Made by a program: the position numbers and the translations under genes
The notes under the pieces: model-generated
What the model was told of the DNA's origin: nothing
Seen by the model: the letters and a program-made list of their open reading frames with translations, nothing else
Database searches by the model: none
From: a virus
Virus record (IMG/VR): IMGVR_UViG_3300045284_000279
Span: 1 to 64,000 of that record
Direction: 5' to 3' (one strand)
Length of the DNA: 64,000 bases
Part shown: piece by piece, positions 12,812 through 63,483 of the stretch
Layout: each line of letters opens with the position of its first letter
Numbering within the stretch: position 1 is the first letter of the stretch

Positions 12812-12812
12812 A

Positions 12813-15877: not shown

Positions 15878-16300
15878 ATGGTCTGCCGGTCCTGCGGCGT
15901 TGCCTACCATCAGCCCTGGGTCGGGTTCCTCGGCACGTGTCCGCAGTGTGAAGGTATCCCAGCGCCAGCGCTGATAACCGTTCCTGACGGCCGCAGTGAT
16001 ATTCCTGAGTGGATCGTTGTGAAGTCTTTCTCGGCCGACGCGACCGAGTGCCCGTCGCGCTTCAGGTTTGTGCTCACGGCGATCCAAGCGCGTGCGCTCA
16101 ACATCAAAGTCGGTCTCGCGTTCCTGCTCGATGCGCAGGTCGCGCAGGCTTGCGTCGTGACGGGCCTCGTCTGTCAGCCTGACAAGTTCATGATCAACGT
16201 CGAAGCTGTGCCAGCTGAATGGGCACCTGTGCCGGTTCCAGAAGCCCGGCGCCGTCGTGCGATCTCCGTAACGGGGTCGCTGAGAAGGGAAGGCAAGTGA
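15878..16300 (+). CDS. zinc-ribbon protein, 140 aa
   Basis: The N-terminus has CRSCG (3-7) and CPQCEG (21-26), a CxxC-x14-CxxC zinc ribbon. The next 90 residues form a beta-rich domain (EWIVVKSFSADATECPSRFRFVL...). Its start lies 3 nt after the previous stop, and it is coupled to the SSB gene, so a nucleic-acid role is plausible. Specific function unknown. Confidence 0.6.
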   Translation: MVCRSCGVAYHQPWVGFLGTCPQCEGIPAPALITVPDGRSDIPEWIVVKSFSADATECPSRFRFVLTAIQARALNIKVGLAFLLDAQVAQACVVTGLVCQPDKFMINVEAVPAEWAPVPVPEARRRRAISVTGSLRREGK

Positions 16301-16776
16301 TGTCGTGGCAGCAGGTAGTGGTGTGCGGAAACCTCGGGCGAGACGCGGAGCTTCGCTATACGAGTGGCGGTCAACCGATCTCGACGTTTTCGGTCGCGAC
16401 TACCGAGCGGTGGAAGGACAAGAGCGGTCAGCGGCAGGAGCGGACCGAGTGGCACCGCATCGTGCTGTGGGGCAAGGCCGCCGAGAGCTTGCAGGAATTC
16501 CTCGTGAAGGGGAAGCAGGTGCTCGTCAGCGGCACGTTGCAGACGCGCAAGTGGGAGAAAGACGGCGTCGAGCGATACACGACCGAGATCAAGGCGCGCG
16601 ACGTCGTCCTGCTCGGCGGAGGCGGCGGAGGCGGAGGCGGCCGCAGGTCCAACCGCGGCGGTCACGTGTCGGACGAAGCGATGGGTGCCGAGATCGAAGG
16701 CGATCCAGTCGGCGGAGATCCAGTCGACGGCGATCCGATCGGTGGAGAGATCACCGACGACGACATTCCGTTCTGA
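16300..16776 (+). CDS. ssb: single-stranded DNA-binding protein
   Basis: The 158-residue protein has a complete OB fold (VVVCGNLGRDAELRYTSGG, ISTFSVATTERWKD, ERTEWHRIVLWGKAAE, VLVSGTLQTRKWE). A glycine run and an acidic repeat (GDPVGGDPVDGDPIGG) follow. The tip DDDIPF is the peptide that recruits replication and repair proteins. It protects single strands made during replication and ERF recombination. It belongs to the same run as DnaB and the nucleases. Confidence 0.95.
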   Translation: MSWQQVVVCGNLGRDAELRYTSGGQPISTFSVATTERWKDKSGQRQERTEWHRIVLWGKAAESLQEFLVKGKQVLVSGTLQTRKWEKDGVERYTTEIKARDVVLLGGGGGGGGGRRSNRGGHVSDEAMGAEIEGDPVGGDPVDGDPIGGEITDDDIPF

Positions 16777-16786
16777 GGAAAAGTCC

Positions 16787-17377
16787 ATGCGAGACCTGAC
16801 GCTGGATCCTGCGATCGTCGCAACGAACGGAGTCGTGATCGGTCCACGCGGCTTGACCGTGACGCGCGAGCTCAGCGAGGAGGAGTGGCTCGGCGTCGGT
16901 CGCCTGATCACGCGACGCCTCTCGCAGGCGTCGTGGCTGGTCGGTGACTGGCTGGTCTACGGAGGGAAGTTCAGCGGCGGTCGCTGGTCCAGCGGCATCG
17001 GGTCGTACGTCCTCGCGCAGGAAGTGACCGGCATGAGTCGGTCGCACCTGTCGAACTGCTACCGCACGGCGGCGACGTTTCCGGCCGGCGAGTGGCTGCG
17101 CACGCTGTCGTGGGCCCATCACTGCCTGCTCGTCTGCGAACCTCCGGCACGCCAACGCGAGTTGATCTCACAGGCTGAGTCGAACGGCTGGACCTGCAAC
17201 GACCTGCGGCAGCGTATCGTGCTGACGAGGGACCGCCCGCGTCCACGGCTGGTGAACAGGCCGAGCTACGTCTATGCCCGCACCCACGTGAAGTGTCCAC
17301 ACTGCGCGACAGTCTTTCAGGTGCAGGGAAACAAGTGCTCACCGCCTGCCGCGGTGCCTGAAGCTGCTTCAGCGTGA
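16787..17377 (+). CDS. LmbU-like putative transcriptional regulator with zinc ribbon (copy 2)
   Basis: The 196-residue protein repeats the LmbU pattern: EEEWLGVGRLI, WLVGDWLVYGG (G-D-W-L-V-Y-G), TGMSRSHLSNCYRTAATFP, LRTLSWAHHCLLVCEPP, then NGWTCNDLRQRI. Near the end, CPHCATVFQVQGNKC (CxxC...C) could bind zinc, which copy 1 lacks. It starts at ATG 16787 with GAGGAAAAG upstream. With the gene at 7333 it forms a divergent pair, possibly regulating different transcription stages. Confidence 0.65.
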   Translation: MRDLTLDPAIVATNGVVIGPRGLTVTRELSEEEWLGVGRLITRRLSQASWLVGDWLVYGGKFSGGRWSSGIGSYVLAQEVTGMSRSHLSNCYRTAATFPAGEWLRTLSWAHHCLLVCEPPARQRELISQAESNGWTCNDLRQRIVLTRDRPRPRLVNRPSYVYARTHVKCPHCATVFQVQGNKCSPPAAVPEAASA

Positions 17378-34964: not shown

Positions 34965-35975
34965 ATGATCAACAGATTCGGAGACCTCCGCCTCAGCGGC
35001 GCGCCAACGCACTTCCAGACGCTGGCGGCGATGCTGGCGCGGAACCTGTCCGTGGGGCAGCTGCGGTCGTTGACCCCGCTGCCTGCCGAGGCGCAGAAGG
35101 AGATCGACAAGGCCGTCGTCAGGGTGGGCCGTACGCGGCTCGTCCTCGTCGACGACCTGATCTCGGAAGGCCTCGTCTACAACCTGACCGACCCGCTCTC
35201 GGTCATGCAGCTGGAATGGGAGTCGACCTCCGAGACCGGCGGCGCGCAGCGGACGATGAGCCCGTCTGCGCGCGGAGAGAACCAGCTGCCGAACCGCACG
35301 CCGAGCCGCGTGCCGATCTTCCTGACGACCGACGACTTCTTCCTCGGCATCAGGACGTTCCGCGCGAGCCAGCGCGTCGGTCAGCCGCTGGACACGACGC
35401 TCGTCGAGCAGGCGACGCGTCGAGTCAACGAGGCGATCGAAGACCAGGCCTTCAACGGCGCCTCGCTCGCCGTCGGCGGCTACTCGGCGCCGGGCGTGCT
35501 CGGCGCACCGAGCGTCAACAGCTACGTCTACAACGACTCCGGCCAGGCGTGGGACAACGCCGGCAAGACGGGGGAGGAGATCCTCTCCGACGTGCTGTCG
35601 ATGATCGACCTCGCCGTCGGCGACAAGCGGTACGGTCCGTACAACCTGTACGTGCCGACGCTCTACGGCAACAAGCTGAACGCCGACTTCAAGGCGAACA
35701 GCGCGATGACGACGCTCCAGCGCCTGGAGCAGATCAGCGTCGGCGGCCGCAACCTGCAGGTGCGCGTCGCGGACGCGCTGCCGGCGAATAAGACCGTGCT
35801 CGTGCAGATGACGAGCGACGTCATCGACCTGATCAACGGTCAGGCTCCGGTGACGATCCCGTGGACGTCCCCGGACGGCTTCACGCTGTACTGGCTCGTG
35901 ATGGCGATCCAGGTCGTGCGCGTGCGCGCCGACTACTCGTCCAACTCGGGCATCGTCGTCGGCTTCACGTCGTAA
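34965..35975 (+). CDS. major capsid protein (HK97 fold, encapsulin-like)
   Basis: The 336-residue product is the expected shell protein: AGGAGG before ATG 34965, location after protease and decoration genes. Family features of encapsulin/linocin-type capsids are DDLISEGLVYNLTDPLSVMQ, the arm ENQLPNRTPSRVPIFLTTDD, FFLGIRTFRASQRVGQPLDT, a glycine-rich spine region, YGPYNLYVPTLYGNKL and IVVGFTS at the end. Several hundred copies would form the head. Confidence 0.88.
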   Translation: MINRFGDLRLSGAPTHFQTLAAMLARNLSVGQLRSLTPLPAEAQKEIDKAVVRVGRTRLVLVDDLISEGLVYNLTDPLSVMQLEWESTSETGGAQRTMSPSARGENQLPNRTPSRVPIFLTTDDFFLGIRTFRASQRVGQPLDTTLVEQATRRVNEAIEDQAFNGASLAVGGYSAPGVLGAPSVNSYVYNDSGQAWDNAGKTGEEILSDVLSMIDLAVGDKRYGPYNLYVPTLYGNKLNADFKANSAMTTLQRLEQISVGGRNLQVRVADALPANKTVLVQMTSDVIDLINGQAPVTIPWTSPDGFTLYWLVMAIQVVRVRADYSSNSGIVVGFTS

Positions 35976-36683: not shown

Positions 36684-37037
36684 ATGGCGTGGGGATTCAC
36701 CGGCGCGGCGGAGCCTGACGTCAACGTGCGTGCCGCCGTCGTGCCCGTCGCCGACGACGTGACGGAAGCCATCGCGCAGGGCGGACAGATCGTCAGCGGC
36801 AACGTACGCATTCAGTGGATCAACGTCATCAACGACGCGCAGCAGGAAGAAGGCGTGCGCGTCACCGACACGGCCGGGAATCCGATCTTGCCGATGGTGA
36901 AGGTGCCGGAGCGCGACAACCGCGAGAAGGAGTGGCCGTTCCCGAAGTACAACGGCGTCGTCGTGTGGCGTCCCTTGTCGGGTGCCGTCGCCAACGGTGC
37001 CGTGACCGTCGACTTGACCGGCTACGCGGTGACCTAA
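36684..37037 (+). CDS. hypothetical structural-region protein, 117 aa
   Basis: ATG 36684 follows the previous stop by three bases. The 117 residues are beta-rich (NVRAAVVPVADDVTEAI, GGQIVSGNVRIQWINVIND, KEWPFPKYNGVVVWRPL), consistent with a small virion protein. No export signal, unlike the next six genes. Function unknown. Confidence 0.55.
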   Translation: MAWGFTGAAEPDVNVRAAVVPVADDVTEAIAQGGQIVSGNVRIQWINVINDAQQEEGVRVTDTAGNPILPMVKVPERDNREKEWPFPKYNGVVVWRPLSGAVANGAVTVDLTGYAVT

Positions 37038-37041: not shown

Positions 37042-37647
37042 GTGAGACGCTGGCTGCACCTCGCGCTCGTCGGTGCCTTCGGGATGTTGGCTGGGAACCT
37101 GCTGACGGGCCGACCCGTCGAAGCGCAGAACATCAAGGCGACGGATCCGCGCAACGGCCACACCGTCGACCTCGGCGACTGGGGCGGGAAGCTCGACACG
37201 ATCGCCGGCGACACGACGGTGATGCAGACGCAGCTGGCGAGCATCCTCAAGCGGCTCAATCGTCCGCTCGTCGTGATTCCGCAGCCGCTCGGTGCCTGCG
37301 CAGCGACGAACACCACGCTCTTCGATCAGGCCATCTCGCAGACGGCGACGACGAGGATCATCACCGGCGTCCCGGGCATGCGGTGGGTGGTCTGCGCGAT
37401 TCGCATCGTGGCGAATGCGGCCGAGGTCACGTCGGAGTTGGAAGGCACGGGCACCAACTGCGGCACCGGCACGGTCGCGCACAGCGGCTCGACGACGGCA
37501 GCGAGCGGTGAGAGCTTTTCAGCAGGCGGCGGCTACCAGAGCACGCAGCCGTTCTACGCGAACAAGCCCGGCACGGACTTCTGCATCGGCGACAGCGGAT
37601 CGAGCAGGGTGACCGGCAAGGTGACGGCGGCGTTCGTGCCGTCTTAG
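37042..37647 (+). CDS. exported protein 1 of a six-gene run, 201 aa
   Basis: GTG start. RRWLHLALVGAFGMLAGNLL followed by TGRPVEAQ is a signal peptide or anchor with a VEA-Q cut site. Then a helix (VMQTQLASILKRLN) and a beta domain with four cysteines (LGACAATN, WVVCAIRI, TNCGTG, DFCIGD) suited to disulphides outside the cytoplasm. Unrelated in detail to the three following paralogues, but it shares their size and placement. Role unknown: surface factor, or virion protein exported before assembly. Confidence 0.65.
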   Translation: MRRWLHLALVGAFGMLAGNLLTGRPVEAQNIKATDPRNGHTVDLGDWGGKLDTIAGDTTVMQTQLASILKRLNRPLVVIPQPLGACAATNTTLFDQAISQTATTRIITGVPGMRWVVCAIRIVANAAEVTSELEGTGTNCGTGTVAHSGSTTAASGESFSAGGGYQSTQPFYANKPGTDFCIGDSGSSRVTGKVTAAFVPS

Positions 37648-37662
37648 GGTGGAGCAGACACG

Positions 37663-38160
37663 ATGAAGACGTGGAAGGCCTTCGACATCATCTTCGCGAC
37701 GCTCAGCGCGGTCGTCGTGGCACTCGTCGTGCCGCTGCACGCGCAGTTGAATCAGCCGGACCCTGCGAAGGTCCAGGCCGAACTGGGCGTCCCTGCGATC
37801 TACCTGGTTCCGATCTCGGCGACAGCAGGTAACTCGACGCAGACGACGCTGACGATTCCTGCACCTCCGCCCGGTGCCTACAACTACGTGTGCAAGCTCG
37901 ACTTCAACGACTCGCAGGGCACGACCGGCAACGCACAGACCAACTCCACGATCACGACGACGAACTTCAACTCGTGGGCGTGGAAGTACAGCCTCGCCGC
38001 GGCGACCAACACGCAGTACGAGCATTCGTTCGACTGGGGTCAGCCGGCGACCGGCTGCGCGAAGAGCACCTCGCCCGCGACGGCGACGACCTTCGTGAGC
38101 CCGAGCGGCGGCAACGCGACGCAGTTCACGTTCTCGGCGATGTACTACCAAGCGAAGTGA
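37663..38160 (+). CDS. exported protein 2 (tandem paralogue A)
   Basis: The 165-residue product starts with a hydrophobic segment (IIFATLSAVVVALVVPLHAQ), then DPAKVQAELGVPAIY, TLTIPAPPPGAYNYVCKLDF, NFNSWAWKYSLAAATNTQYE, HSFDWGQPATGCAKSTSP and a final strand FTFSAMYYQAK. The same blocks recur in the next two genes. Two cysteines (VCKL and TGCAK) are conserved in all three and may pair. The pattern is an exported beta-sandwich of unknown function. Confidence 0.65.
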   Translation: MKTWKAFDIIFATLSAVVVALVVPLHAQLNQPDPAKVQAELGVPAIYLVPISATAGNSTQTTLTIPAPPPGAYNYVCKLDFNDSQGTTGNAQTNSTITTTNFNSWAWKYSLAAATNTQYEHSFDWGQPATGCAKSTSPATATTFVSPSGGNATQFTFSAMYYQAK

Positions 38161-38168
38161 GGATTCCG

Positions 38169-38705
38169 ATGAAGCGTGCCGTCGTCTTCCTGATCGCCTT
38201 CTTCGGTCTGCTCGTCCTCGGGCCGCGTGCCACGCAGGTAATCTGGCGCGCCGCCGAGATGCCGTTCTCGTTGGCGGAAAGGCTCGACGCGCAGAACCTC
38301 TCCGATCCTGCGAAGACGCAGGTTGAGATCGGCATCCCGGCCGTCTACACGATTGCGATCTCGGCGACGGCCGCCGTCAACAACCAGACGACGCTGACGA
38401 TTCCGCAGCCGCCGTCCGGTCAGTACAACTACGTGTGCAAGCTCGAATTCAGCGCGAGCCAGAACGGCACGTCGACGGCTAACCCGAACAGCACGACGAG
38501 CTCGACGAACTTCAACAGCTGGGCGTGGAAGTATTCGCTGGCGGCGACGGCGAACCTGTCGTACGAACATTCGTTCGACATGGGCAACCCTGCGACCGGC
38601 TGCGCGAAGAGCACGTCACCCGGCACCGTCACGACGTTCGTCTCGCCGGCAGCGCTGACCAACACGGCCTTCACGTGGTCGGCCACCTACTATCAGGCGA
38701 AGTAA
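38169..38705 (+). CDS. exported protein 3 (tandem paralogue B)
   Basis: The 178-residue product is a paralogue of its neighbours. A hydrophobic start (AVVFLIAFFGLLVLGPRA) is followed by a longer spacer ending DAQ, then DPAKTQVEIGIPAVY, NYVCKLEFSASQNG, NFNSWAWKYSLAATANLSYE, HSFDMGNPATGCAKSTSPGT and WSATYYQAK. It overlaps the next gene by one base. Conservation of the tryptophan-rich block and cysteines, with changed loops, suggests duplication and diversification. Confidence 0.65.
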   Translation: MKRAVVFLIAFFGLLVLGPRATQVIWRAAEMPFSLAERLDAQNLSDPAKTQVEIGIPAVYTIAISATAAVNNQTTLTIPQPPSGQYNYVCKLEFSASQNGTSTANPNSTTSSTNFNSWAWKYSLAATANLSYEHSFDMGNPATGCAKSTSPGTVTTFVSPAALTNTAFTWSATYYQAK

Positions 38706-39220
38706 TGGGGACGTCAGCCTTCGCTCGAACGATCGTCCGCGACGCGCTGCGCATCGTCGGCCTGCTCGCCTGCGCCATCATCGCGCTCGGCCTCAGGCAG
38801 CAGCAGAATACGCCGGACCCTGCGAAGCTCCAGATTGAGCTCGGCGTGCCGGGCGTCTACCTGACGCAGTCGTCGGCGACTGGCGCGAGCAGCGCACAGG
38901 TGACGCTCACGATTCCTGCGCCGCAGCCGAACAACTTCGTCTACGTCTGCAAGCTCGAGATCTCGGCGTCGAACGACGGCGTCGGAGCAGGTGCACTGAC
39001 GAACGCCACGTGGACCTCGACGAACTTCAACTCGTGGGCCTGGAAGTATTCCTCGCCGATGGCTGCGCGCACGAACTACGAACACGCGTTCGACTGGGGT
39101 CAACCTGCGTCCGGCTGCGCGAAGGCGATCCTGCCCGGCACGGCAGTGACGTTCGTGTCGACGGCGGCGACCGGCAACGACCAGTTCACGATGAGCGCCG
39201 TGTGGTTCTACGGGAAGTAA
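38705..39220 (+). CDS. exported protein 4 (tandem paralogue C)
   Basis: The third paralogue, 171 residues. Hydrophobic segment LRIVGLLACAIIALGL without a clear cut site, so possibly anchored. Then DPAKLQIELGVPGVY, VYVCKLEISASNDG, NFNSWAWKYSSPMAARTNYE, HAFDWGQPASGCAK and FTMSAVWFYGK. It is more divergent at both ends than A and B. ATG 38705 overlaps the previous stop. Confidence 0.65.
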   Translation: MGTSAFARTIVRDALRIVGLLACAIIALGLRQQQNTPDPAKLQIELGVPGVYLTQSSATGASSAQVTLTIPAPQPNNFVYVCKLEISASNDGVGAGALTNATWTSTNFNSWAWKYSSPMAARTNYEHAFDWGQPASGCAKAILPGTAVTFVSTAATGNDQFTMSAVWFYGK

Positions 39221-39233
39221 AGGAGTGTCCTGC

Positions 39234-39608
39234 ATGACTCGCCCTGTTCGGCTGGTGCTCGCGCTGATCGTCGCCGCGAGCCTCGCCTCGCCCGCGTCGG
39301 CCGCCATCACGTATACGCAGGCTGCGGCGCTCGCTGTCGACACGGTCTTTATCGGTCAGGTGCTGGTGTCAGTCGAAAAGGCGGCCGTCTCCATCAACGC
39401 GGAAGCGACGACCGTCGCAGGTCATCGCGAGCGTGCGGCGCTGGCGACGCGCGTGATGGCCGACCCAGACGTCTGGAAGCTCAAGTTCGCCAACGCCTGC
39501 GCCGGCAACCTCACGTCGACGCTGTCGGGCGTGTCGGCCACCGACGCACAGGTCGACACGGCCGTGTCGTCCGTCTGGAATACGATGGCCGGCTACTTCG
39601 CGCAGTAG
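39234..39608 (+). CDS. exported protein 5, 124 aa
   Basis: ATG 39234 is chosen over GTG 39225 because AAAGGAG at 39219-39225 is correctly spaced for it. The N-terminus (RPVRLVLALIVAASLASPAS) followed by AAITYTQ is a typical signal peptide with an ASA cut site. The mature part is helical and alanine/valine-rich (YTQAAALAVDTVFIGQVLVS, RERAALATRVMADPDVWKLK). Unknown family. Confidence 0.65.
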   Translation: MTRPVRLVLALIVAASLASPASAAITYTQAAALAVDTVFIGQVLVSVEKAAVSINAEATTVAGHRERAALATRVMADPDVWKLKFANACAGNLTSTLSGVSATDAQVDTAVSSVWNTMAGYFAQ

Positions 39609-39615
39609 ACTTCCG

Positions 39616-40347
39616 ATGCGTAGACTACTCATCGCCTTCGCGCTGTTCCTCATCTGCGCCTCTCGCGTCGATGCAGCGCTGGCCGTCGTGCAGGAGAAGG
39701 GCGTCTTCAACCCGAACCCTGCGAGCACGACCGCCGCGATTACGATCACCAGTTCAGTCTCGGGGAACCTCCTCATCGCGCTGGTGATGAACGACGCTTC
39801 CCAGCCGACCGTGTCTGGTGTCAGCGGCGGCGGCGCGAACACCTTCACGCAGGTGCCGTCGGCCCGCGCGCTGGACGGCGGCACGCACATGTCGGACATC
39901 TGGTATCTGCCGAACAACGCCGGCGGGATCACGACTGTCACGGCGACGCTCAGCGCGTCGAGTAGTTCGCACGGCATCTGGGTGATGGAAGTGTCGGGTG
40001 CCGCGACGGCGAGTCCCGTCGACATCCAGTCGGTGAAGAACAACGCAACGGCCTCGACGACGGTCACCGGCACGTCGATGAACACGACGAACGCCGCCGA
40101 CATCATCGTGGCGAACTGGACGACCGGCGCGACGACGACGACGGCCAACGCGCCGTGGACGCTGTTCACGAATATCCTGAACGGAAACGGTGCCGGCTAC
40201 CAGATCGTCGCCGTCACCAACTCGTACGCCGTGTCGGCCAACCAGAATTCAAGTCAGACGTACTGCGTGTCGCAGGTCGCCTTCAAGGGTACTGCGGCGG
40301 CGGCACCGTGCACCCGATCGTTGCTCGGCGTCGGGTGCCTGCCGTGA
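39616..40347 (+). CDS. exported protein 6, beta-sandwich type, 243 aa
   Basis: MRRLLIAFALFLICASRVDA is a clear signal peptide. The mature 220 residues are Ser/Thr/Gly/Ala-rich strands: ITITSSVSGNLLIALVMNDA, GGITTVTATLSASSSSHGIW, PVDIQSVKNNATASTTVTGT. This resembles beta-sandwich surface proteins seen in bacteria and metagenomic phages, often adhesion-related. Two cysteines occur near the C-terminus. It could be an exported lectin or decoy, or part of the virion. Confidence 0.65.
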   Translation: MRRLLIAFALFLICASRVDAALAVVQEKGVFNPNPASTTAAITITSSVSGNLLIALVMNDASQPTVSGVSGGGANTFTQVPSARALDGGTHMSDIWYLPNNAGGITTVTATLSASSSSHGIWVMEVSGAATASPVDIQSVKNNATASTTVTGTSMNTTNAADIIVANWTTGATTTTANAPWTLFTNILNGNGAGYQIVAVTNSYAVSANQNSSQTYCVSQVAFKGTAAAAPCTRSLLGVGCLP

Positions 40348-40383
40348 TCTTTCGTTCACTGTAGCCTTGGAAAGGTGCCGTCG

Positions 40384-40902
40384 ATGATGCCGATGATTAC
40401 GAGACAGCGCAAGCGCCAGCGAGCTATCGGCCTGCTCGCGCTCTTCGGGCTGCAGCCGATCTACGACCTGCGCCGGTCGAAGGGGAACACCTTCGAAGAC
40501 GACGTGTTGAAGCTGTACTTCAACGCGACGGCGATCGCGAACATCGCCGACAACGCGGCGAGCTCGCCCATCACGAACATCGAAGTCGCGCTGCACACCG
40601 CCGACCCAGGTGAGGCCGGGAACCAGACGACGAGCGAAGCGGCCTACACCAGCTACGCGCGCGTCGCCGTGGCGCGGACCTCGGGCGGCTGGTCGGTCTC
40701 GTCCGGCAGCGTGTCGCCCGTCGCGAACATCGACTTCCCTGCGGCGACCGGCGGATCGGAAACCGAGACGCACGGATCGGTCGGCACAGCGCACACCGGC
40801 ACCGGCAAGATCATGTACAGCGGCACCGTGACGCCGAACATCGCCGTCGCGAACGGCGTGACGCCTCGCCTGACGACGGCGAGTGCGATCACGGAGGACT
40901 GA
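40384..40902 (+). CDS. conserved phage structural protein, 172 aa
   Basis: ATG 40384 is better spaced from GGAAAGG (40366-40372) than GTG 40375. After a basic start come NTFEDDVLKLYFNATA, ITNIEVALHTADPGEAGNQT, TSEAAYTSYARVAVARTSGG and GSETETHGSVGTAHTGTGKI. This is a known virion-associated family ('lhtadPG..g.q.t.E..Yt.YaRvavart.ggw'), probably a head or tail decoration. Unlike the six genes before it, it has no export signal. Confidence 0.7.
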   Translation: MMPMITRQRKRQRAIGLLALFGLQPIYDLRRSKGNTFEDDVLKLYFNATAIANIADNAASSPITNIEVALHTADPGEAGNQTTSEAAYTSYARVAVARTSGGWSVSSGSVSPVANIDFPAATGGSETETHGSVGTAHTGTGKIMYSGTVTPNIAVANGVTPRLTTASAITED

Positions 40903-41344: not shown

Positions 41345-43141
41345 ATGAAGCTCGGGCTCCGCATTCCGTACTACTACGCCGCAGGACCGGTCATCGTCGC
41401 AGCCGCCTTGACGTGTGCGAGTGCCTCGTCGGCGTCCTTCGTCGGCCGCTCGACGCGCGCGGGCGCGTTGTCGAGTGCCGGCACGGCTGCCGCAACCTTC
41501 GTCGGGCGGAGCACGCGCGCGGCGAGCCTGTCTAGCGCAGGAGTCGGTACGGCGACGTACGTCGGGGCGCCTCGCGCAGCCGGCGCGCTCGCGTCGGCAG
41601 GAGTCGGAGCCGTGACCTTCGTGGGTCGGTCCACCGCTGCTGGCAGTCTCGCGTCGGCAGGCGTCGGCGCGGCGACCTTCGTGGGCCGCTCTACGGCTGC
41701 AGGAGCGCTGTCATCTGCGGGGGGTGCCTCAGTAGCCTGGACGGGCCGCTCGACAGCCTCCGGGGCACTGGTCAGCGCTGGCATCGGGTCTGCGACCTTA
41801 GTAGGACGAGCCGTCAAGTCGGCCGCCCTGTCGGCCGCAGGAGCAGGAACGGCGTCGTACGTCGGACGATCTACGGCTGCAGGCGCCTTGGCAGCTGCAG
41901 GAGTTGGCACGGCAACCTTCACCGGCAGGTCTACGGCCTCGGCCGCCCTGTCCTCGGCAGGCCTGTCTACGGCTGCTCTGGTAGGCCGGTCCACCGCGGC
42001 CGGGGCGTTAGCCGCCTCAGGGGCGGCGACAGCGTCCTGGGCCGGGAGGTCCAGCGCAGTAGCCATCCTGGCCGCAGCCGGCACCGGCACCGCGTCGTGG
42101 ACCGGCGCGAGTCGGTCTGCCGCGGCGTTGTCGTGCACTGGCGCAGCAACCGTCCTCTTCGTCTCGAAGCCGGAAGGCCGCTTGCTGGCGGCAGGAGTCA
42201 GCGCGGCGAGCTTCGTCGGTAGTTCGACGGCGGCCGCAGTGCTGTCGTGCGCCGGTGCATCCTCGGTCGCCTTCGACGGCAGGGCGAGCAAAGCAGCCGC
42301 CCTGTCGAGCGCAGGTCTGTCCTCGGCGAGCTTCGTCGGGCGATCCACCTTCTCGGCCTCGATGTCGGCGAGTGCTGCCAGCACTGCGACATTCGTCGGC
42401 GCGCCTCGGACGGCTGCCGCGCTCTCGGCCGCGGGGATCTCGAGCGCGACCTTCGTCGGCAGGTCGACGACGGCCGGAGTGCTGTCGAGTGCAGGCGCAT
42501 CTTCAGCACCCTTCGTCGGACGGGCGACGGCCGCAGGTGCCTTGACGGCCGCAGGCGCAGGATCGGCGACCTTCGTCGGTCGCTCGACGTCGGCCGGCGT
42601 GTTGTCGGCCGCAGGCACGAGCGCGCTGTCGTTCTCGACGAACGCCACTCGCTCTGCGGTCTTCTCGTCCGCAGGAGTCGGCTCGGCATCGTGGACCGGT
42701 GCGAGCATCAAGGCCGGCGCGCTCTCGTCGGTAGGTCTCAGCGCGGCGAGCTTCGTCGGTCGTTCGACTCGCGCTGGTGCCTTGTCGACATCTGGCGCAG
42801 CAACGGCGACATTCGTCGGGCGCACGACGCGAGCGGGAAGTCTGACGGCAGCCGGCGTTGGATCGGCGACCTTCGTAGGCCGCTCGACTCGCTCTGCGGT
42901 TTTCTCGGCGACGGGCTTCGGTTCTGTCTCGTGGAACGGCGTCATCTCAGGCACGGCGTCAGAGACGCACCTCATCGCCGTCTTCTCGCCCGCGTTGGCC
43001 TGCGTCGCGCAGGTCCAAGGCGACTCCGTGCTCGCCGCGACGTGGCGACAGGCCGTGCAGGTCGCCGTCGTCTATGCGCCCTCGGCAGGCCTGCTCGGCT
43101 CTGCTCGCGTCGACGACACGGAAGGCGAAGGCGACTTCTGA
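41345..43141 (+). CDS. large repeat protein with 25 copies of a 20-residue unit (598 aa)
   Basis: The first 31 residues include a hydrophobic stretch. Residues 32-529 are 25 consecutive units with consensus FVGRSTxAGxLSSAGxxSAT; unit 13 is two residues short. Each unit holds two likely short strands (SATFVG and AGALSSAG), so a beta-solenoid or stacked fibre is plausible. Residues 530-598 form a different C-terminal part (THLIAVFSPALACVAQVQGD...VDDTEGEGDF). It sits between head and tail genes, so a head fibre, tail-associated fibre or adhesin is likely. No known family was recognised. Confidence 0.75.
   Translation: MKLGLRIPYYYAAGPVIVAAALTCASASSASFVGRSTRAGALSSAGTAAATFVGRSTRAASLSSAGVGTATYVGAPRAAGALASAGVGAVTFVGRSTAAGSLASAGVGAATFVGRSTAAGALSSAGGASVAWTGRSTASGALVSAGIGSATLVGRAVKSAALSAAGAGTASYVGRSTAAGALAAAGVGTATFTGRSTASAALSSAGLSTAALVGRSTAAGALAASGAATASWAGRSSAVAILAAAGTGTASWTGASRSAAALSCTGAATVLFVSKPEGRLLAAGVSAASFVGSSTAAAVLSCAGASSVAFDGRASKAAALSSAGLSSASFVGRSTFSASMSASAASTATFVGAPRTAAALSAAGISSATFVGRSTTAGVLSSAGASSAPFVGRATAAGALTAAGAGSATFVGRSTSAGVLSAAGTSALSFSTNATRSAVFSSAGVGSASWTGASIKAGALSSVGLSAASFVGRSTRAGALSTSGAATATFVGRTTRAGSLTAAGVGSATFVGRSTRSAVFSATGFGSVSWNGVISGTASETHLIAVFSPALACVAQVQGDSVLAATWRQAVQVAVVYAPSAGLLGSARVDDTEGEGDF
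41438..42931 (+). repeat. 60-bp tandem coding repeat, about 25 copies
   Basis: A period of 60 bp (one unit of 54) follows the protein repeat. DNA copies have diverged at third positions while FVGRST and SSAG are kept, so protein structure, not DNA, appears to be selected. The periodicity also opens long antisense frames that are not genes. Confidence 0.85.
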
Positions 43142-44145: not shown

Positions 44146-44502
44146 ATGGCGCTCGATGACCTCATTCGTGGCGGCATCGCGCTGGCGAAGGATCTGACGG
44201 CCGACCTGCAAGCGACCGTCAAGCATCGCCGCTACAAGGGCCAGCTGCACACCGGCGAGCGGGACTTCTATCCGGTCGTCCTGCGGCAGGCCATCGTCGA
44301 CGCGAAGCAGGAGAAGGTTCGCGCAGCCGACGGGCGCGAGGTCGTCAGCAGGATGTACGTGCTGTTCCTCGAACCCGTCGACGTCACGTTGAAGGACGAG
44401 ATCACCTTGCCGGACGGCACGAAGCCTGAGCTCATCGCGCTGGCAGGGTTCGTCGACAAAGGATCTGGGAATCCCTATTACCGAGAGATCTGGACGGCAT
44501 GA
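44146..44502 (+). CDS. head-closure / minor capsid protein, 118 aa
   Basis: ATG 44146, one base after the connector stop. The 118 residues (KHRRYKGQLHTGERDFYPVV, REVVSRMYVLFLEPVDVTLK, LPDGTKPELIALAGFVDKGS GNPYYREIW) match the small beta-barrel stopper proteins that lie between connector and tail completion genes. Uniquely, the next gene is not the tail completion gene but an aminotransferase, overlapping by ATGA. Confidence 0.65.
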   Translation: MALDDLIRGGIALAKDLTADLQATVKHRRYKGQLHTGERDFYPVVLRQAIVDAKQEKVRAADGREVVSRMYVLFLEPVDVTLKDEITLPDGTKPELIALAGFVDKGSGNPYYREIWTA

Positions 44503-45575
44503 TCCGCGTGGCACTCGCTGAGCCCTACCTGATCGGCAATGAACGCCGATACGTCCTCGATGCGATGGACAAGGGCGAGCTGACGTGGCGCGGAGCCTAT
44601 GTCGAACGCTTCGAGCACGCCTTTGCGAAGTACGTCGGCGCGCGCTACGCCATCGCCTGCTGTAACGGCACGGCCGCCCTGCACCTCGCCCTGCGTGCTG
44701 CAGGAGTCGAGCGCGGCATGCGCGTCGCCATGCCGACGCTGACCTACGTGGCGACGGCGAACGCCGTCCGCTACTGTGAGGCTGTGCCAGTCTTCTGCGA
44801 CGTCGATCCCGAGACGTGGCAGATGAGGCTGGACTACCGCCGACACGACCACGTCGACGCCATCCTGCCGGTGCACCTCTACGGCATTCCTGCGACGTCT
44901 GTCTCGCGATCGCCTGGCCTCGTCGTAGAAGATGCGGCCGAAGCCTTCGGCGCGCTGTTCGACGGCGTGACGCACGTCGGCATGATGGGGGCAGCCGGGT
45001 CGTTCTCGTTCTACGCGAACAAGATTCTGACCTGCGGCGAAGGCGGCATCGTCGTGACGAACGACGAGCAGGTCGCCGCGAAGGCTCGCCTGCTGCGCGG
45101 GCAGGCGCAAAGTCCCGATCGGCTGTACTGGCACGTCGACGTCGGCTTCAACTACCGCATGACGAACCTGCAAGCGGCCGTTGCGCTCGGACAGATCGAA
45201 AAGGCCGGCATCCACCTTTCCGCGCGCCTCGGGATCTTCGACCACTACCGCTTTCGCCTGCGTGACGAATCCGTGTCGTGGCCGCGCACGGAGCACGTCA
45301 CCGACATTCAGGCGCCGTGGATGTTCGTCGTGCAGCTGCCGCCGTACGTCAATCGTGACAGCACGATCGAGAAGCTCGCAGGTCGAGGCGTAGAGACGCG
45401 GCCGGCCTTCGCCTGCCTGCACACGATGCCGCCCTACGCAACTGGCGAACAGCTGCCTCACGCGCAGGCGATCTCCGCGAGTGCGCTGTGCCTGCCGACG
45501 CACGGAGGTCTGACGTATGCCGAGGTCGACTACGTCTGCGACAGCCTGCTCGAGATCATCAGGAGGGCAGCGTGA
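44499..45575 (+). CDS. DegT/DnrJ/EryC1 aminotransferase, perosamine-synthase-like
   Basis: The 358-residue PLP enzyme transfers an amino group to a keto-sugar nucleotide. Signatures: GELTWRGAYVERFE (26-39), CNGTAALHLAL (55-65), PTLTYVATANAV (79-90), VVEDAAEAFGA (142-152, Asp for the PLP nitrogen) and GSFSFYANKILTCGEGG (167-183), with K175 as Schiff-base lysine. Then NYRMTNLQAAVALGQIE. Overall it is closest to GDP-perosamine synthases, so a 4-amino-4,6-dideoxyhexose is the likely product type. Its substrate must come from the host or from genes outside the window. It is placed inside the head-tail gene run. Confidence 0.88.
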   Translation: MIRVALAEPYLIGNERRYVLDAMDKGELTWRGAYVERFEHAFAKYVGARYAIACCNGTAALHLALRAAGVERGMRVAMPTLTYVATANAVRYCEAVPVFCDVDPETWQMRLDYRRHDHVDAILPVHLYGIPATSVSRSPGLVVEDAAEAFGALFDGVTHVGMMGAAGSFSFYANKILTCGEGGIVVTNDEQVAAKARLLRGQAQSPDRLYWHVDVGFNYRMTNLQAAVALGQIEKAGIHLSARLGIFDHYRFRLRDESVSWPRTEHVTDIQAPWMFVVQLPPYVNRDSTIEKLAGRGVETRPAFACLHTMPPYATGEQLPHAQAISASALCLPTHGGLTYAEVDYVCDSLLEIIRRAA

Positions 45576-46297
45576 GCTACGTCGGCGCTGAAGCGACCGT
45601 CAGAGGCTTCAACGCGAAGTGCTTCTTCGGCGCAGGCGAGAAGACGCCCGGCTGGTATCTGTACGGCGGCTTCCGCGGCCAGATCCACGAGGTGCCGCTC
45701 GCAGGTCCATTCAATGACGAAGCGACCTGCCTGCGCGCGGCCGTCTGGATGGAAGCGCAGGCGCACCCGACGTGGTCTGAGGTCTATCAGACGGTGAAGC
45801 TGATACCTGCCGCCGACGGGGCGTTCCAGATCGAGCAGGTGCCGGAGATCTACGACCCAGTCATCGTCCTGCGCGCTCAGGCGATTCGCATCGCCCGCAC
45901 TGCCCGCGTCGACAGCTTCGTGAAGCTCGAAGGCGGCGAAGGCCTGTTCATCGGCGAGCACGTGCACGTCGCGTCGTTCTGCCACCTTGGCATCGGCGGT
46001 GGCCTGACGCTGCTCGAAGACGGATCGTCGTTCGGCTCTGGATCGAAGGTGCTGAGCGGCAGCAATACGCACGGCCTCGGGCATGGCTGCTCGGCTATCG
46101 TGCCGGACGCACAGTTCTCGCGGTCCTTCGTCCACGTCAAGAAGAACGCCACGTTGTTCGTCAATGCTGTTGTCCTGCCGGGCGTAACCGTCGGCGAGAA
46201 TGCGGTCGTCGCCGCAGGTGCCGTCGTAACGAAGGACGTGCCGGACGGCGAGATCTGGGGCGGGATTCCTGCGCGCAAGATCGGAGTCGTCCTGTGA
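45572..46297 (+). CDS. hexapeptide-repeat (left-handed beta-helix) acyltransferase
   Basis: The GTG at 45572 overlaps the aminotransferase stop. Of 241 residues, 1-100 are a non-repeat domain, and 105-240 show hexapeptide turns: GLFIGEHVHVASFCHLG, GSKVLSGSNTHG (H167 likely catalytic), NAVVLPGVTVGENAVVAAGA and VVTKDVPDGEIWGGIPARKI. This is the sugar N- or O-acyltransferase fold. Paired with an aminotransferase it should N-acetylate or N-formylate the amino sugar. The extra N-terminal domain is unusual. Confidence 0.85.
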   Translation: MSYVGAEATVRGFNAKCFFGAGEKTPGWYLYGGFRGQIHEVPLAGPFNDEATCLRAAVWMEAQAHPTWSEVYQTVKLIPAADGAFQIEQVPEIYDPVIVLRAQAIRIARTARVDSFVKLEGGEGLFIGEHVHVASFCHLGIGGGLTLLEDGSSFGSGSKVLSGSNTHGLGHGCSAIVPDAQFSRSFVHVKKNATLFVNAVVLPGVTVGENAVVAAGAVVTKDVPDGEIWGGIPARKIGVVL

Positions 46298-46929
46298 GCG
46301 TGCGCTGCTTCATGATCGAACCGATCGGGCGTGCGCGCCTGACCCTGCGCCGCTATGCCGACGGCCCGTGTCCGAACATGCCGGGACAGCACGGCTATCA
46401 CAACGCCGAGGCGCCGCTGTTCGACGTCGACGAGCGAAAAGACCCTACCGGTTCGCCCGGCGATTGGGTCTACAAGCACGACGGTCCGCAGCGTCTGGAA
46501 GACGTGCCTCCTGAGTATGCGTTTCCGACGCACTGCGCCTGCGGCTTCGCGTTTCCAGAGAAGGGCGGACAGATCTTCTCGGTCCACCTCTATCGTCGCG
46601 TCGACAACGGCGAGGTCCGCACGCACCGCGAGTGGGTGAAGGTGCCTGGGGCGATGTGGAACGCCGAGTGGCTGGCGCGCTATCCGCACTACTGCGGGCC
46701 TGACGGCCTCGCGCTGACGGTCGTCTGTCCGAACGGACAGGAGTGGTCGATCGACGGACGCTGCAGCAACTGTACGATGCCGGAAGACATGACGCACAAG
46801 TGTTGGGTGCGTCACGGGGTGCCTCCGCTCATCACAGTTGACAAGGACGGCGTGACGTGTGCCGCCGGCGCAGGGTCCATTCAGGCAGGTGACTATCACG
46901 GGTTCCTGCGGAACGGAGAATTCACGTGA
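46294..46929 (+). CDS. cysteine-containing protein of the sugar cassette, 211 aa
   Basis: GTG start overlapping the acyltransferase stop. The 211 residues include MPGQHGYHNAEAPLF, THCACGFAFPEKGGQIF, VPGAMWNAEWLARYPHYCGP DGL, SIDGRCSNCTMPEDMTHKC and a last block WVRHGVPPLITVDKDGVTCA, then AGSI...YHGFLRNGEFT. CxxC pairs suggest zinc. The WVRHG...YHGFLrnG end is shared by small phage proteins of unknown role and is echoed in the next gene (WHGFLERGTW). Confidence 0.6.
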   Translation: MSVRCFMIEPIGRARLTLRRYADGPCPNMPGQHGYHNAEAPLFDVDERKDPTGSPGDWVYKHDGPQRLEDVPPEYAFPTHCACGFAFPEKGGQIFSVHLYRRVDNGEVRTHREWVKVPGAMWNAEWLARYPHYCGPDGLALTVVCPNGQEWSIDGRCSNCTMPEDMTHKCWVRHGVPPLITVDKDGVTCAAGAGSIQAGDYHGFLRNGEFT

Positions 46930-47165
46930 CCGGCCTGCGCCTTGCCGACGGCCAGCCTGCTGAGATTCCTGCGGCGGGATCGTACTGGCTACACGGGACG
47001 ACGTGGTATGCGATCACGCCGAACGGCATGCTGGCCTCGCTGGCAAACCACACCGTCGAAGTCCACGACGACGGCACCATCTCGGTTAGCCCGTCGATCA
47101 GGTGCCGCAGTCCACTGCGTGAGTGGCATGGCTTTCTCGAACGTGGCACGTGGAGGGACGCGTGA
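46926..47165 (+). CDS. small protein related to neighbour's C-terminus, 79 aa
   Basis: GTG start, overlapping both neighbours by four bases. The 79 residues (YWLHGTTWYAITPNGMLASL, HTVEVHDDGTISVSPSIRCR, EWHGFLERGTWRDA) end like the preceding protein and resemble DUF6527-type phage proteins with 'H.v..h.DGtisvsPSI...wHgfl..G'. Function unknown. Confidence 0.55.
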   Translation: MTGLRLADGQPAEIPAAGSYWLHGTTWYAITPNGMLASLANHTVEVHDDGTISVSPSIRCRSPLREWHGFLERGTWRDA

Positions 47166-47839
47166 AGGTCGTCGTCGGATCGGCGTTCAGGAACAGCGAA
47201 GGTCGCGTCGACCGCTACTTCGAGCAGGTCGCGGCCTTCGCGCGCTACGGGAAGGAGCACGCCTTCGACGTGCGCGTCGCGGCCATCGAAGGTGATTCGA
47301 CCGACGGCACGCGTGCTCGCCTGCAGCAGCCTCGCGACCTCGACGTCGACGTGGTCATTCACGAACACGGCGGACCCGTCTACGGGTCGACGGAAGACCC
47401 TGCGCGCATGGCGCAGCTGACCGGCGTCGGCAACGCCATCTTCAACAGTGTGCGCGAGAGCGACGACGTGCTCGTCTACGTCGAGAGCGACCTCATGTGG
47501 GACGCTGCGACGATCCACTCGCTCATGCTGTCGGTGATCTGCGGAGCCTGCGACGTAGTTGCGCCGCTCGTCTTTGCTGGCCCTCACTTCTACGACATCT
47601 ACGCCTTCAGGAAGAACGGCGTGCGCTTCAGCCCGTTCTATCCGTATCACGCGGACCTGAACGGCGAGCAACTCGTCGACGTGGATTCTGCCGGTAGTTG
47701 CCTCGTGATGTCGGCGCAGGTCGCGCGCGAGGTGAGGATTCCTGTCGGTGGAGTCCTCGTCGAGTGGTGCAACTCTGCGCGCGCGGCTGGCTATCGCGTC
47801 TGTGCGCGGCTCGACCTCGGAATCCAGCATGGTATCTGA
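47162..47839 (+). CDS. GT-A glycosyltransferase, Anp1/GT62-like or GT2-like
   Basis: GTG start 47162 overlaps the previous stop. The 225 residues have a Rossmann-like start VKVVVGSAFRNSEG (1-14), AAIEGDSTDGT (40-50), and DDVLVYVESDLMWD (101-114) holding the ESD metal site. DVVAPLVFAGPHFYDIYAFR, then DSAGSCLVMSAQVA, completes a mannan-polymerase-like (Anp1) pattern. It transfers a sugar from a nucleotide donor using metal. With the aminotransferase and acyltransferase it forms a synthesis plus transfer set. Confidence 0.75.
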   Translation: MKVVVGSAFRNSEGRVDRYFEQVAAFARYGKEHAFDVRVAAIEGDSTDGTRARLQQPRDLDVDVVIHEHGGPVYGSTEDPARMAQLTGVGNAIFNSVRESDDVLVYVESDLMWDAATIHSLMLSVICGACDVVAPLVFAGPHFYDIYAFRKNGVRFSPFYPYHADLNGEQLVDVDSAGSCLVMSAQVAREVRIPVGGVLVEWCNSARAAGYRVCARLDLGIQHGI

Positions 47840-48757
47840 ATGCTGAAGGTCTTCGCCAACCCAGTCGGTCTGCACAGCAGGGCGATGGTGCGCGTGGTCA
47901 ACGGCCTGGCCTCGCATGCGCCGAGCCACGTGCGGTTCGTCACCGACCCTGCGGAGGCCGACCTGCGCGTCATTCACGCGATCAGTCACGAATTTGCGCA
48001 GCAGATCGTTCCGGGTCAGGCGTACGTCTGGATTCAGTACTGCCTGCGAACGACGAGCGACCAGAAGATCGACGAGCACTTCTGGCTGCCCATCTGGGAC
48101 AACGCGGCGCTCGTGTGGAGCTACTTCGACCTGCCGGAGATCCTGCGGGAGAGCGAAGCCTCGCGCACGAACGGCTTCGCGTTCTACCACTCGCCGCTCG
48201 GTTTAAGCACGGCCTTCGTAGACTCTCGACCGAACGTGTTCCTGCCGGTGAAGCGAGACATCGGCGTGATGTCGTCTGGCTTCGTCTCGGGGCCGTCCGC
48301 TGAGGCCATCGAAGAAGTGGCGATGGCGGCAGACACCGTGGGGATCTCGGTCCTGCACCTCGGTCCAGAAGCTGTCGTCGGCATGCGCGTCAAGCCACCG
48401 CGCTGGAAGAACGTGCTCGGCGTCAGCGACGTGGACCTAGCGCACTACTACGAGCGGTGCGAGTGGGTCTCAGCCTTGCGGCACGTGGAAGGCTTTGAGA
48501 TGCCGGCCATCGAAGCACTGGCCTGCGGCGCTCGCCCGATCGTCTTCGACCGTCCCGACATGACGCAGTGGTATGAAGGCCTTGCCACCTTCGTGCCGGA
48601 AGCGCACGGCTACGAGTTGGTCGATTCGCTCACGGAGATCCTGCGCCATCACCCGAAGCCGGTGACCGACGCGCAGCGAGAGGAGGTCCGCCGCAGGTTC
48701 GATTGGAAGACGGTTGCGACAGGGTTTTGGGACAGAGTGTTGTCTGAGCAGCAGTAG
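47840..48757 (+). CDS. GT-B glycosyltransferase (GT4-like), 305 aa
   Basis: Starts directly at the base after the previous stop. The N-terminal half (VFANPVGLHSRAMVRVVNGL, AEADLRVIHAISHEFA) is a diverged acceptor domain. The C-terminal half carries YERCEWVSALRHVEGFEMPAIEAL (EGFE at 217-220, EAL at 225-227), then CGARPIVFDRPDM, the E-x7-E donor-sugar site of GT4-type enzymes. It is shorter than usual (305 versus 350-400 residues). Acceptor unknown. Confidence 0.75.
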   Translation: MLKVFANPVGLHSRAMVRVVNGLASHAPSHVRFVTDPAEADLRVIHAISHEFAQQIVPGQAYVWIQYCLRTTSDQKIDEHFWLPIWDNAALVWSYFDLPEILRESEASRTNGFAFYHSPLGLSTAFVDSRPNVFLPVKRDIGVMSSGFVSGPSAEAIEEVAMAADTVGISVLHLGPEAVVGMRVKPPRWKNVLGVSDVDLAHYYERCEWVSALRHVEGFEMPAIEALACGARPIVFDRPDMTQWYEGLATFVPEAHGYELVDSLTEILRHHPKPVTDAQREEVRRRFDWKTVATGFWDRVLSEQQ

Positions 48758-48772
48758 AAGGAGTCCATCGAA

Positions 48773-49081
48773 ATGCCTGACTACTTTTCAAGCCATGCGT
48801 TGGGACAGGCACTGTCTACGCGCGGCATCTTGCCGAAGAACTGTGGCGACGTCGAACTGCTGATTCCAGTTGACGGCGTGCTCCAGCTTCAGTGCAAGAT
48901 CAACGTCGAGGCCGGCGACATTCCGAAGATCATCGATGCGCTCAAAGAGCTTGCGGCAGGACCGACTGTCGATGCGTCGGTTGCGCTGACTGTCGTCGAG
49001 ACCGAACGCGATGCCAAGGAGCAGGATGCGTTCGTCTCGCGGCTGCGCGGTAGCCTGAACGGAGGAGCCGACCATGCGTAG
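48773..49081 (+). CDS. hypothetical protein, 102 aa
   Basis: AAGGAG precedes ATG 48773. The 102 residues (VELLIPVDGVLQLQCKINVE, AGDIPKIIDALKELAAG, then an acidic end) form an apparent beta-beta-alpha domain. It interrupts two glycosyltransferase genes and overlaps the second by 8 bases. No family recognised. Confidence 0.5.
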   Translation: MPDYFSSHALGQALSTRGILPKNCGDVELLIPVDGVLQLQCKINVEAGDIPKIIDALKELAAGPTVDASVALTVVETERDAKEQDAFVSRLRGSLNGGADHA

Positions 49082-50291
49082 GCTGCTCTGGATCGGCGAC
49101 GCGTGCTGCTCGACTGGCTTCGCGCGCATCACGCACGGCGTGCTTGACGTCGTGCGGCACTCGTGGGATGTCTGCGTGCTCGGCCTCAACGCGCAGGGCG
49201 AACCGCACGACTACCCGTATCGCGTCTGGCCGTGCTATCCGGGCGGTGACTTCTGGGGCATCGGCCGCATGCGTGAGTTGATCTACAAGCTCGAGCCGGA
49301 CCTGATCGTGATCCAGAACGACCCGTGGAACTTCCCGCGCTACATGGAGCACGTCGGGAAGATCCCCGTCGTTGCTGCTGTCGCCGTCGACGGGAAGAAC
49401 TGCCGTGGGCGAGACCTCAACGGCGTGAAGCATGCGATCTTCTGGACCGGCTTCGGAGCCGACGAAGCGGCGCAGGGTGGCTATCGCGGACCAGCCAGCG
49501 TGATTCCGCTTGGCGTTGACCTCGAGACGTATCAGCCTCGCCCGCGTCAGCTCGCCCGCGAGCAACTTGGTCTGTCGCCTAAGTTGATGCCAGCCTTCAT
49601 CGTCGGCACGGTATGTAGGAACCAGCCGCGCAAGCGCCTCGACCTGACGGTGATGTACTTCGCCGAGTGGGTGAAGTCGCGCAGCGTCGAAGATGCCTAC
49701 CTGTACGTCCACGCTAATCCGATCGGCAGGGAAGACATGCCGACTGGTCTCAGCGCTGAAGCCTTCGACGTGCCGCAGCTGATGTCGTACTTCGGTCTCG
49801 GCGGTCGCCTGATCTGGTCCAATCCGGAGATCATGCGCGGCGACTCCGAAGAGCACATAGTTCGCACGTACAACGCCTTCGACGTTCAGATGACGCAGTC
49901 GCAGAACGAAGGGTGGGATCTGCCGGTGATGGAAGGGATGGCCTGCGGCATTCCGCAGATCGTTCCAGAGTGGGCGGCGCTCGGTGAGTGGGCGCACGAC
50001 GCAGCGATGCTGGTGCAGTGCACGACCTTCGCCTGTACGCCGAACAAGGTCAACGCGATCGGCGGGATTCCCGACAGGATGCAGACGCTGGAGTGGCTCG
50101 ATTCGATCTACGAGTCGAAGCACGGACAGCTCTGGGCCCGCTGCCGACAGCGCGGCCTCGACCTCGTGCGGCAGCCGCAGTTCCGCTGGTCGGCCATCGG
50201 GCAGGCCTATGCGGACGTGTTCGATCGCGTGCACGCGAGCTTCCCGATGGAGCATGCTCGCCCAGGCGCAGGCGTGCTGCAGGAGCAGTGA
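49074..50291 (+). CDS. GT-B glycosyltransferase (GT4 family), 405 aa
   Basis: The 405-residue product matches a phage-borne GT4 lineage. It starts RRLLWIGDACCSTGFARITH (2-21). Mid-protein landmarks are IQNDPWNFPRYMEHVG, AVDGKNCRGRDLNG, FWTGFGADEAAQGGY and VIPLGVD. The donor-binding half has CRNQPRKRLDLTVMYFAEW (181-199), and QNEGWDLPVMEGMACGIPQI (277-296) includes E279 and E287 of the EX7E motif. It probably acts with retention of configuration. The one-base overlap with the tail completion gene puts it in the morphogenesis transcript. Confidence 0.82.
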   Translation: MRRLLWIGDACCSTGFARITHGVLDVVRHSWDVCVLGLNAQGEPHDYPYRVWPCYPGGDFWGIGRMRELIYKLEPDLIVIQNDPWNFPRYMEHVGKIPVVAAVAVDGKNCRGRDLNGVKHAIFWTGFGADEAAQGGYRGPASVIPLGVDLETYQPRPRQLAREQLGLSPKLMPAFIVGTVCRNQPRKRLDLTVMYFAEWVKSRSVEDAYLYVHANPIGREDMPTGLSAEAFDVPQLMSYFGLGGRLIWSNPEIMRGDSEEHIVRTYNAFDVQMTQSQNEGWDLPVMEGMACGIPQIVPEWAALGEWAHDAAMLVQCTTFACTPNKVNAIGGIPDRMQTLEWLDSIYESKHGQLWARCRQRGLDLVRQPQFRWSAIGQAYADVFDRVHASFPMEHARPGAGVLQEQ

Positions 50292-62979: not shown

Positions 62980-63483
62980 ATGAAGAGCAGGTTGATCGGC
63001 CCGTCCCTGTTGGTGGCTTCCGCGTCGGCGTTCGCCTTGGCCGTGGCCTTCACCGTCTCGTCGGTGGCGACGACGGCGGCGCAGGCGAATCCGTGTACGG
63101 CCGCTCCCGTTACGTCGCTCAATCCGACGACGCTGTTCGCGCAGCTTCCCGATCAGAACGTGAACGAGGCCGACGGGCAACCTCGCGTCACTGACTATCA
63201 GTTTGCCTACTTCACCTCGCCCGTGGCGACCGTGCCGATCCTGCCGGCGGTGACCGTCGCGAAGTCGGCATTTACGTTGGTCGCAGGGACGCAGGACTGT
63301 TACCGCGCAGCCCTGCCGGCAACGCTTCCGACCGTCCTCGGCACGGCCGTCGGCGGCCTGAAGACCCACCGTGCCGCGCGCACGGGCCTACCGGAAGCGG
63401 AGTCGGCCTTCACGATCAGCAACCCTTTCGGAACCGCTCCGTCTGTGCTGGCGGCACCGGGGCGAGTGGTAATCAGCCAGTAA
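62980..63483 (+). CDS. exported protein, 167 aa
   Basis: GAAGGAG precedes ATG 62980. A signal peptide is evident (MKSRLIGPSLLVASASAFAL, AVAFTVSSVATTAAQA-N). The mature part has cysteines NPCTAAP and QDCYRAA, with proline/threonine/alanine-rich strands. It is not obviously related to the six exported proteins at 37-40 kb. Surface or periplasmic function is inferred only. Confidence 0.6.
   Translation: MKSRLIGPSLLVASASAFALAVAFTVSSVATTAAQANPCTAAPVTSLNPTTLFAQLPDQNVNEADGQPRVTDYQFAYFTSPVATVPILPAVTVAKSAFTLVAGTQDCYRAALPATLPTVLGTAVGGLKTHRAARTGLPEAESAFTISNPFGTAPSVLAAPGRVVISQ

Follow-up and report, generated by a model that had tools for sequence, protein, structure and literature searches.

A candidate mobile cassette of putatively exported, disulphide-bearing proteins in the structural module of a soil phage

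The window analysed here is a 64,000-nucleotide (64 kb) stretch, positions 1 to 64,000 of a 69,760-base uncultivated virus record (IMGVR_UViG_3300045284_000279) from a soil phage. Between its major capsid protein (MCP) gene at 34965 and a head-protein gene at 40375 lies a block of six consecutive genes whose products begin with a predicted signal peptide or anchor. Our leading explanation, to which we give about even odds, is that the block is a mobile cassette whose products are Sec-exported surface proteins, stabilised by disulphides, that probably come to sit on the virion during lysis or afterwards. Of the steps in this proposal, export with disulphide folding has the best support; the sequences of the block and its relatives make it highly probable. 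The block and its immediate neighbours are as follows (aa, amino acids):

34965..35975, + strand: major capsid protein, start of the local structural module (phrog_771 4e-17, phrog_264 6e-12, Pfam Major_capside)
36684..37037, + strand: 117-aa protein without signal peptide, immediately 5′ of the exported block; conserved neighbour, with a homologue in the same position in contig L008 (6247; phmmer 2e-5)
37042..37647, + strand: predicted exported protein of family A, 201 aa; signal peptide MRR..VEA|Q, 4 cysteines, predicted jelly-roll domain at the C-terminus carrying the motif EGTGTNCGTG
37663..38160, + strand: predicted exported protein of family B, paralogue 1, 165 aa; signal peptide MKT..LHA|Q, predicted jelly roll with 2 invariant cysteines
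38169..38705, + strand: predicted exported protein of family B, paralogue 2, 178 aa; hydrophobic N-terminus, uncertain cleavage site
38705..39220, + strand: predicted exported protein of family B, paralogue 3, 171 aa; signal peptide or uncleaved anchor, start overlapping the stop of the preceding gene
39234..39608, + strand: predicted exported protein, 124 aa; signal peptide ending PASA|A, AGGAG before the start, weak match to phrog_33419 (unknown function; 1e-3)
39616..40347, + strand: predicted exported protein of family C, 243 aa; signal peptide ending VDA|A, conserved C-terminal LLGVG
40375..40902, + strand: head protein/fibre I-like gene closing the block (phrog_240 head protein 1.7e-15; Pfam Gp80, podophage GP4 fiber I, 1.9e-15)

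Predicted export of the six block proteins

Signal peptides were called by a rule that combines a positive n-region, an uncharged h-region of 10 aa with a mean hydropathy of at least 1.9, and an A-x-A-like site. All six block genes were positive, in agreement with a preliminary description that had given each of them a signal peptide or anchor, and an independent codon-usage gene caller recovered all six open reading frames (ORFs) among about 93 genes in the window. In total, nine of the 93 window genes were positive, including a run of seven; outside the six, the positives were 40384 (doubtful, with a short hydrophobic stretch), 41345 (also doubtful) and 62980. Random placement of nine positives gave a run of six or more in only 5 of 400,000 shuffles, with an analytic bound of 1e-5. 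The false-positive rate on shuffled N-termini was 3.8% overall and 3-25% for the six taken one by one, because alanine- and leucine-rich N-termini satisfy the rule more readily. The six can thus be safely regarded as predicted signal-peptide genes as a group, single calls being less secure. The signals of 37042, 37663, 39234 and 39616 are of textbook type. Those of 38169, which has a long c-region, and 38705 lack a clean cleavage site and could be uncleaved anchors; their homologues have canonical signals.

The predicted mature parts contain four cysteines in 37042, two in each of 37663, 38169 and 38705, one in 39234 and three in 39616. The earlier suggestion that the cysteines fit extracytoplasmic disulphides consequently holds for four of the six genes, but not for 39234 and 39616. 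The same tendency was seen more broadly. Across 18 distinct sequences, the rule scored 67 of the 350 genes with more than 70 aa as signal-peptide genes; cysteine counts in signal-peptide genes were even in 51 cases and odd in 10, compared to 78 even and 116 odd for the other genes on the same contigs (p about 1e-9, an optimistic value, as is the next, since the genes are related to one another). The bias was still seen when families A and B were left out (26 even, 10 odd; p 4e-4). Even counts are expected of disulphide-bearing proteins.

Signals of this kind had been described as rare among phage head-tail genes. Indeed, seven named phages whose capsids are related (phiV10, BcepC6B, PBR31, FGH, cta1H496, MaInes and StAshley) yielded no rule-positive gene among 102 structural genes. 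The Brevundimonas phage MaInes has portal, protease, decoration-like and capsid genes in common with the window and lacks the exported block; the window MCP is 32% identical to that of another Brevundimonas phage, StAshley. In the open-licence literature, we found no paper that describes such a module or reports signal peptides for structural genes in phages like these.

Recurrence, families and predicted folds

Families A and B were found in about 20 other viral or prophage contigs, and a signal peptide was present in all 29 family A and B genes of these relatives, including those of a 40%-GC contig (L026). Most homologues have an n-h-c layout with A-x-A followed by Q. Runs of two to seven predicted exported genes recur inside head/tail modules: up to seven in the window, six in L008, four in L013, L020 and L025, and three in L016, L024 and L026. 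The A, B and C families occur in varying combinations across related contigs. In six cases (the window, L008, L021, L024, L025 and L028), the block lies in the head module next to the MCP gene, and the MCPs concerned belong to at least four unrelated types: phrog_283 (L021, L025, L028), phrog_212 (L024), phrog_771-like (the window) and another in L008. Block members elsewhere can be lectin- or lyase-like, with a Laminin_G_3 domain in L034 and a beta-helix in L016.

The most precise placement comes from L024, an epsilon15-like contig whose MCP is 49% identical to that of phiV10. Its gene order is MCP, cement homologue, a small gene, exported B, exported A, an exported 703-aa protein, one more gene and then the tail proteins. 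The position in phiV10 that matches the B/A block holds a homologue of the epsilon15 capsid staple gp10 (PDB 3j40), which is listed as a stability protein with a predicted jelly roll (PMC7602432).

The genes at 37663, 38169 and 38705, whose tandem paralogy the preliminary description overlooked, are 53-64% identical and make up family B. Their N-termini diverge; the mature part retains two invariant cysteines and a T-N-F-N motif. Across the family, the signal region is only 25% identical, compared to 50% for the mature part. In the family B tree, the three window copies cluster together (support 99/97), as do the two L008 copies (99/99), so the duplications were independent in the two lineages. 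The family A protein (37042) has a C-terminal domain with the motif EGTGxxCGT that, in other phages, terminates proteins of up to about 850 aa. In an Acidobacteriota prophage (L031, 7628-9330) and a matching viral contig (L022), the family A gene is frameshifted between the signal-peptide part and the remainder. As to family C (39616), two of its six members match the minor tail protein phrog_553 (best 2.4e-8), the window member having no match; the LLGVG motif (window 40318-40344) is kept at the C-terminus of several family C proteins. The window members of all three families gave no meaningful PHROG or Pfam match and no PDB sequence match. Families A and B could not be joined in a single sequence family (hhalign not significant), and a proposed homology between 39234 and L006:6364 (the same as L008:8254) was dropped, the alignment being unconvincing and phmmer giving no match.

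AlphaFold (AF2) predicted jelly rolls in 37042 (residues 93-200) and 37663 (45-165); confidence was good in the cores and poor at the N-termini. The best structural matches of A and B were middling and not specific (Z 8.2 and 7.6). They include phage baseplate, turret and cement proteins, together with spore appendages, BclA/C1q, plant virus coats and a Bdellovibrio protein, 8okh (Bd1399), and support the predicted jelly-roll fold only; epsilon15 gp10 was not among the Foldseek PDB matches listed for family B. The best BFVD match of family B is from Curvibacter phage P26059B, probably ORF 38231-38611, judging by its length. This ORF (L070) encodes a 126-aa jelly-roll-like protein without a real signal peptide, adjoins spanin-like genes and is uninformative on location. 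An Ena-like disulphide polymer was discarded as a candidate, the N-terminal linker of family B having no cysteine.

A scan of 84,980 species genomes detected no family B, and the family A domain in two Acidobacteriota genomes only. One of these (L031) is clearly a prophage end, with a tail-tip-like gene, exported genes, a lysozyme-like gene and then chromosomal genes (gene names from reading the sequences); in the other (L030), the copy lies beside terminase-like genes. A check of 396 Acidobacteriota genomes gave A in one and B in none, an initial look having been shallow. This near-absence, with the phage context of both matches, speaks against the copying of a host protein, a reading that we rejected. 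The exported genes of L031 lie between the tail-tip-like gene and the lysis genes, the usual position of fibre genes. An Acidobacteriota host can be inferred for these relatives only and not for the window phage.

Among named phages, tblastn revealed no relatives of family B or C, none of the bare A domain and one of the long family A protein, in a spring podophage (L034, MW202554). Here (11872-17372), an exported 846-aa family A-like protein and an exported LamG lectin-like protein are encoded soon after the portal gene, followed by a pectate-lyase-like gene. A cultured parallel is provided by Tunturi 1 and 2, podophages of Tunturiibacter (Acidobacteriota; PMC11924767). In both, the region from a tail gene to the endolysin contains five exported-looking genes (L035, 10371-23028, in Tunturi 1; L064, 803-13745, in Tunturi 2), including genes annotated as tail spike, tail fibre and, in Tunturi 2, pectin lyase; gp17 is a beta-helix. 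The tailspike- and fibre-like gp12-gp17 resemble the window block in forming a run of signal-peptide genes within the structural module and in having many cysteines; unlike it, they encode long proteins, for which no homology to family A, B or C was detected. The feature is not universal in Acidobacteriota phages, since none of the 31 Tunturi 3 genes looks exported and Tunturi 4 has a single such gene, for a membrane-like protein. The term 'signal peptide' never occurs in the main text of PMC11924767.

Other features of the window

Two further genes deserve mention:

41345..43141, + strand: 598-aa repeat protein, syntenic with L008:9479, the L008 counterpart matching phrog_8510 virion structural protein
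62980..63483, + strand: exported-looking protein outside the block, near the right end of the window (signal-peptide rule), 167 aa, 2 cysteines in the mature part

The 41345-43141 protein is built of repeats of about 24 aa (SAG..TATFVGRST) and has a 533-aa antisense ORF opposite it; the repeats of L008:9479 differ. Also within the structural module, positions 44499-50288 contain DegT aminotransferase, hexapeptide acyltransferase and glycosyltransferase-like genes, a sugar-modification set that could serve in glycosylation of virion or exported proteins, or in changing the host surface.

Where the predicted exported proteins might act

We propose that the late (structural) module carries a mobile accessory cassette for small, putative beta-sandwich proteins. 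These would leave the cytoplasm through the Sec pathway of the host, have their signal peptide removed and acquire disulphides once outside. They would then remain in the periplasm or on the envelope until lysis, when they would bind heads or tails as decoration or adhesion proteins, the benefit perhaps being stability in soil or adhesion to the host. A role on the virion is favoured by the staple-locus position, the minor tail match of family C and the tailspike-like exported genes of the Tunturi phages, as well as by the placing of blocks next to MCP genes, the predicted jelly rolls with phage cement, turret and baseplate proteins among their middling matches, and the fibre-type position in L031. 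The preliminary description had offered either a surface or periplasmic complex for receptor masking, superinfection exclusion or adhesion, or an exported virion ornament, all of them still plausible. Its export component is supported by the 29/29 conserved signals, the even-cysteine bias and the clustering, a single complex of six proteins is not, as relatives hold the families in differing combinations, and the locus, the jelly-roll fold and the Tunturi 1 and 2 genes lean towards a virion ornament or adhesin.

The closest known systems in place, and probably in fold, are decoration proteins such as gp10, though we do not claim membership and suggest only that the block proteins may work like them. 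Like the predicted jelly rolls of the block, epsilon15 gp10 and the head decoration proteins (BPP-1 cement, KHP30/KHP40 cement, Dec, Hoc/Soc) are small jelly-roll or beta proteins encoded between capsid and tail genes, and the L024 block occupies the genomic place of gp10. Known decoration proteins are, however, cytoplasmic and without signal peptides, whereas the block encodes several divergent paralogues with invariant cysteines, and PHROG, Pfam and PDB sequence searches gave no meaningful similarity between families A or B and known decoration families. Dec and Hoc/Soc attach to finished heads in vitro (PMC7602432).

Several points weigh against a destination on the virion. We found no proteomics placing these proteins in particles, and the Tunturi paper (PMC11924767) contains no mass spectrometry. 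It is odd for a capsid-lattice binder that one cassette should lie beside unrelated capsid proteins, attachment after lysis would suffer from dilution in the environment, and Z-scores of at most 8.2 fail to tell phage ornaments from other jelly rolls. The tail of phage Milano has disulphides, which can form in virions without export (PMC10811340), so the presence of cysteines would not in itself prove export.

The general view is that assembly of tailed phages takes place in the cytoplasm, and a second assembly compartment outside it is not known for them. We put forward tentatively, as a somewhat doubtful idea, that some tailed phages, at least of Acidobacteriota, export head ornaments and tailspikes through the host secretion pathway for disulphide folding, the particle being completed outside the cytoplasm at lysis.

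An alternative to which we give a substantial minority share of the probability is that the proteins are exported and never join the virion. Kept on the infected cell or released into the medium, they would mask receptors, in superinfection exclusion or to keep progeny off debris, or bind and degrade matrix polysaccharide. Proteins normally reach the envelope by means of a signal peptide, and an envelope or extracellular role is favoured by the cassette's independence of capsid type and by the lectin- and lyase-like exported members elsewhere (Laminin_G_3 in L034, beta-helices in L016 and Tunturi gp17, the pectin lyase of Tunturi 2); the glycan gene block close by in the window agrees with such a role. 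Bdellovibrio employs exported phage-fibre-like surface adhesins (PMC10769870), also beta proteins sent to the envelope, and 8okh is among the structural matches; these adhesins are, however, bacterial and lie outside any phage structural operon, and the match is generic. The Ena endospore appendage subunits, small cysteine-bearing jelly rolls, match at Z ≤7.6, a likeness of fold that is not discriminating and, again, comes without the linker cysteine for disulphide polymerisation. Superinfection-exclusion and envelope morons share with the block that they are phage-encoded and exported, but the classical exclusion proteins are small and often prophage-expressed, unlike a group of three to seven genes placed between those for head and tail. 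None of the known exclusion families matched the block in PHROGs or Pfam (PADLOC was not searched), and no lipobox or sorting domain was noticed by eye in its sequences, although 38705 may be an anchor. A purely non-virion role would also leave the exact epsilon15 gp10 locus and the phrog_553 match unexplained.

It is unlikely, in our view, that the hydrophobic N-termini are not export signals at all and act instead as membrane-active virion segments for DNA ejection or as anchors tethering assembly to the membrane. Hydrophobic ends do occur on some phage pilot proteins, and the missing clean cleavage sites of 38169 and 38705 would fit, but the n-h-c layout with A-x-A then Q and the even-cysteine mature parts fit cleaved Sec signals, and ejection proteins are not typically jelly rolls. 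A chance resemblance, the alanine- and leucine-rich N-termini of a GC-rich genome mimicking signal peptides, is very improbable: the pass rate of shuffled N-termini speaks for it, but the rarity of a six-gene run (about 1e-5), the conservation of the signal in relatives, including the 40%-GC contig, and the negative controls stand against it. Chance or a gene-calling artefact is thereby ruled out for the group; single genes could be misjudged.

If our proposal of an exported cassette is correct, the structural operons of a range of soil phages share a recurrent, transferable set of exported proteins, with two possible consequences: the virion receives its last components beyond the cytoplasm, or the late genes alter the surface of the host. 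Each reading can be tested now, since a block of comparable kind exists in the cultured Acidobacteriota phages Tunturi 1 and 2, and either would give functional meaning to unannotated protein families of soil viromes.

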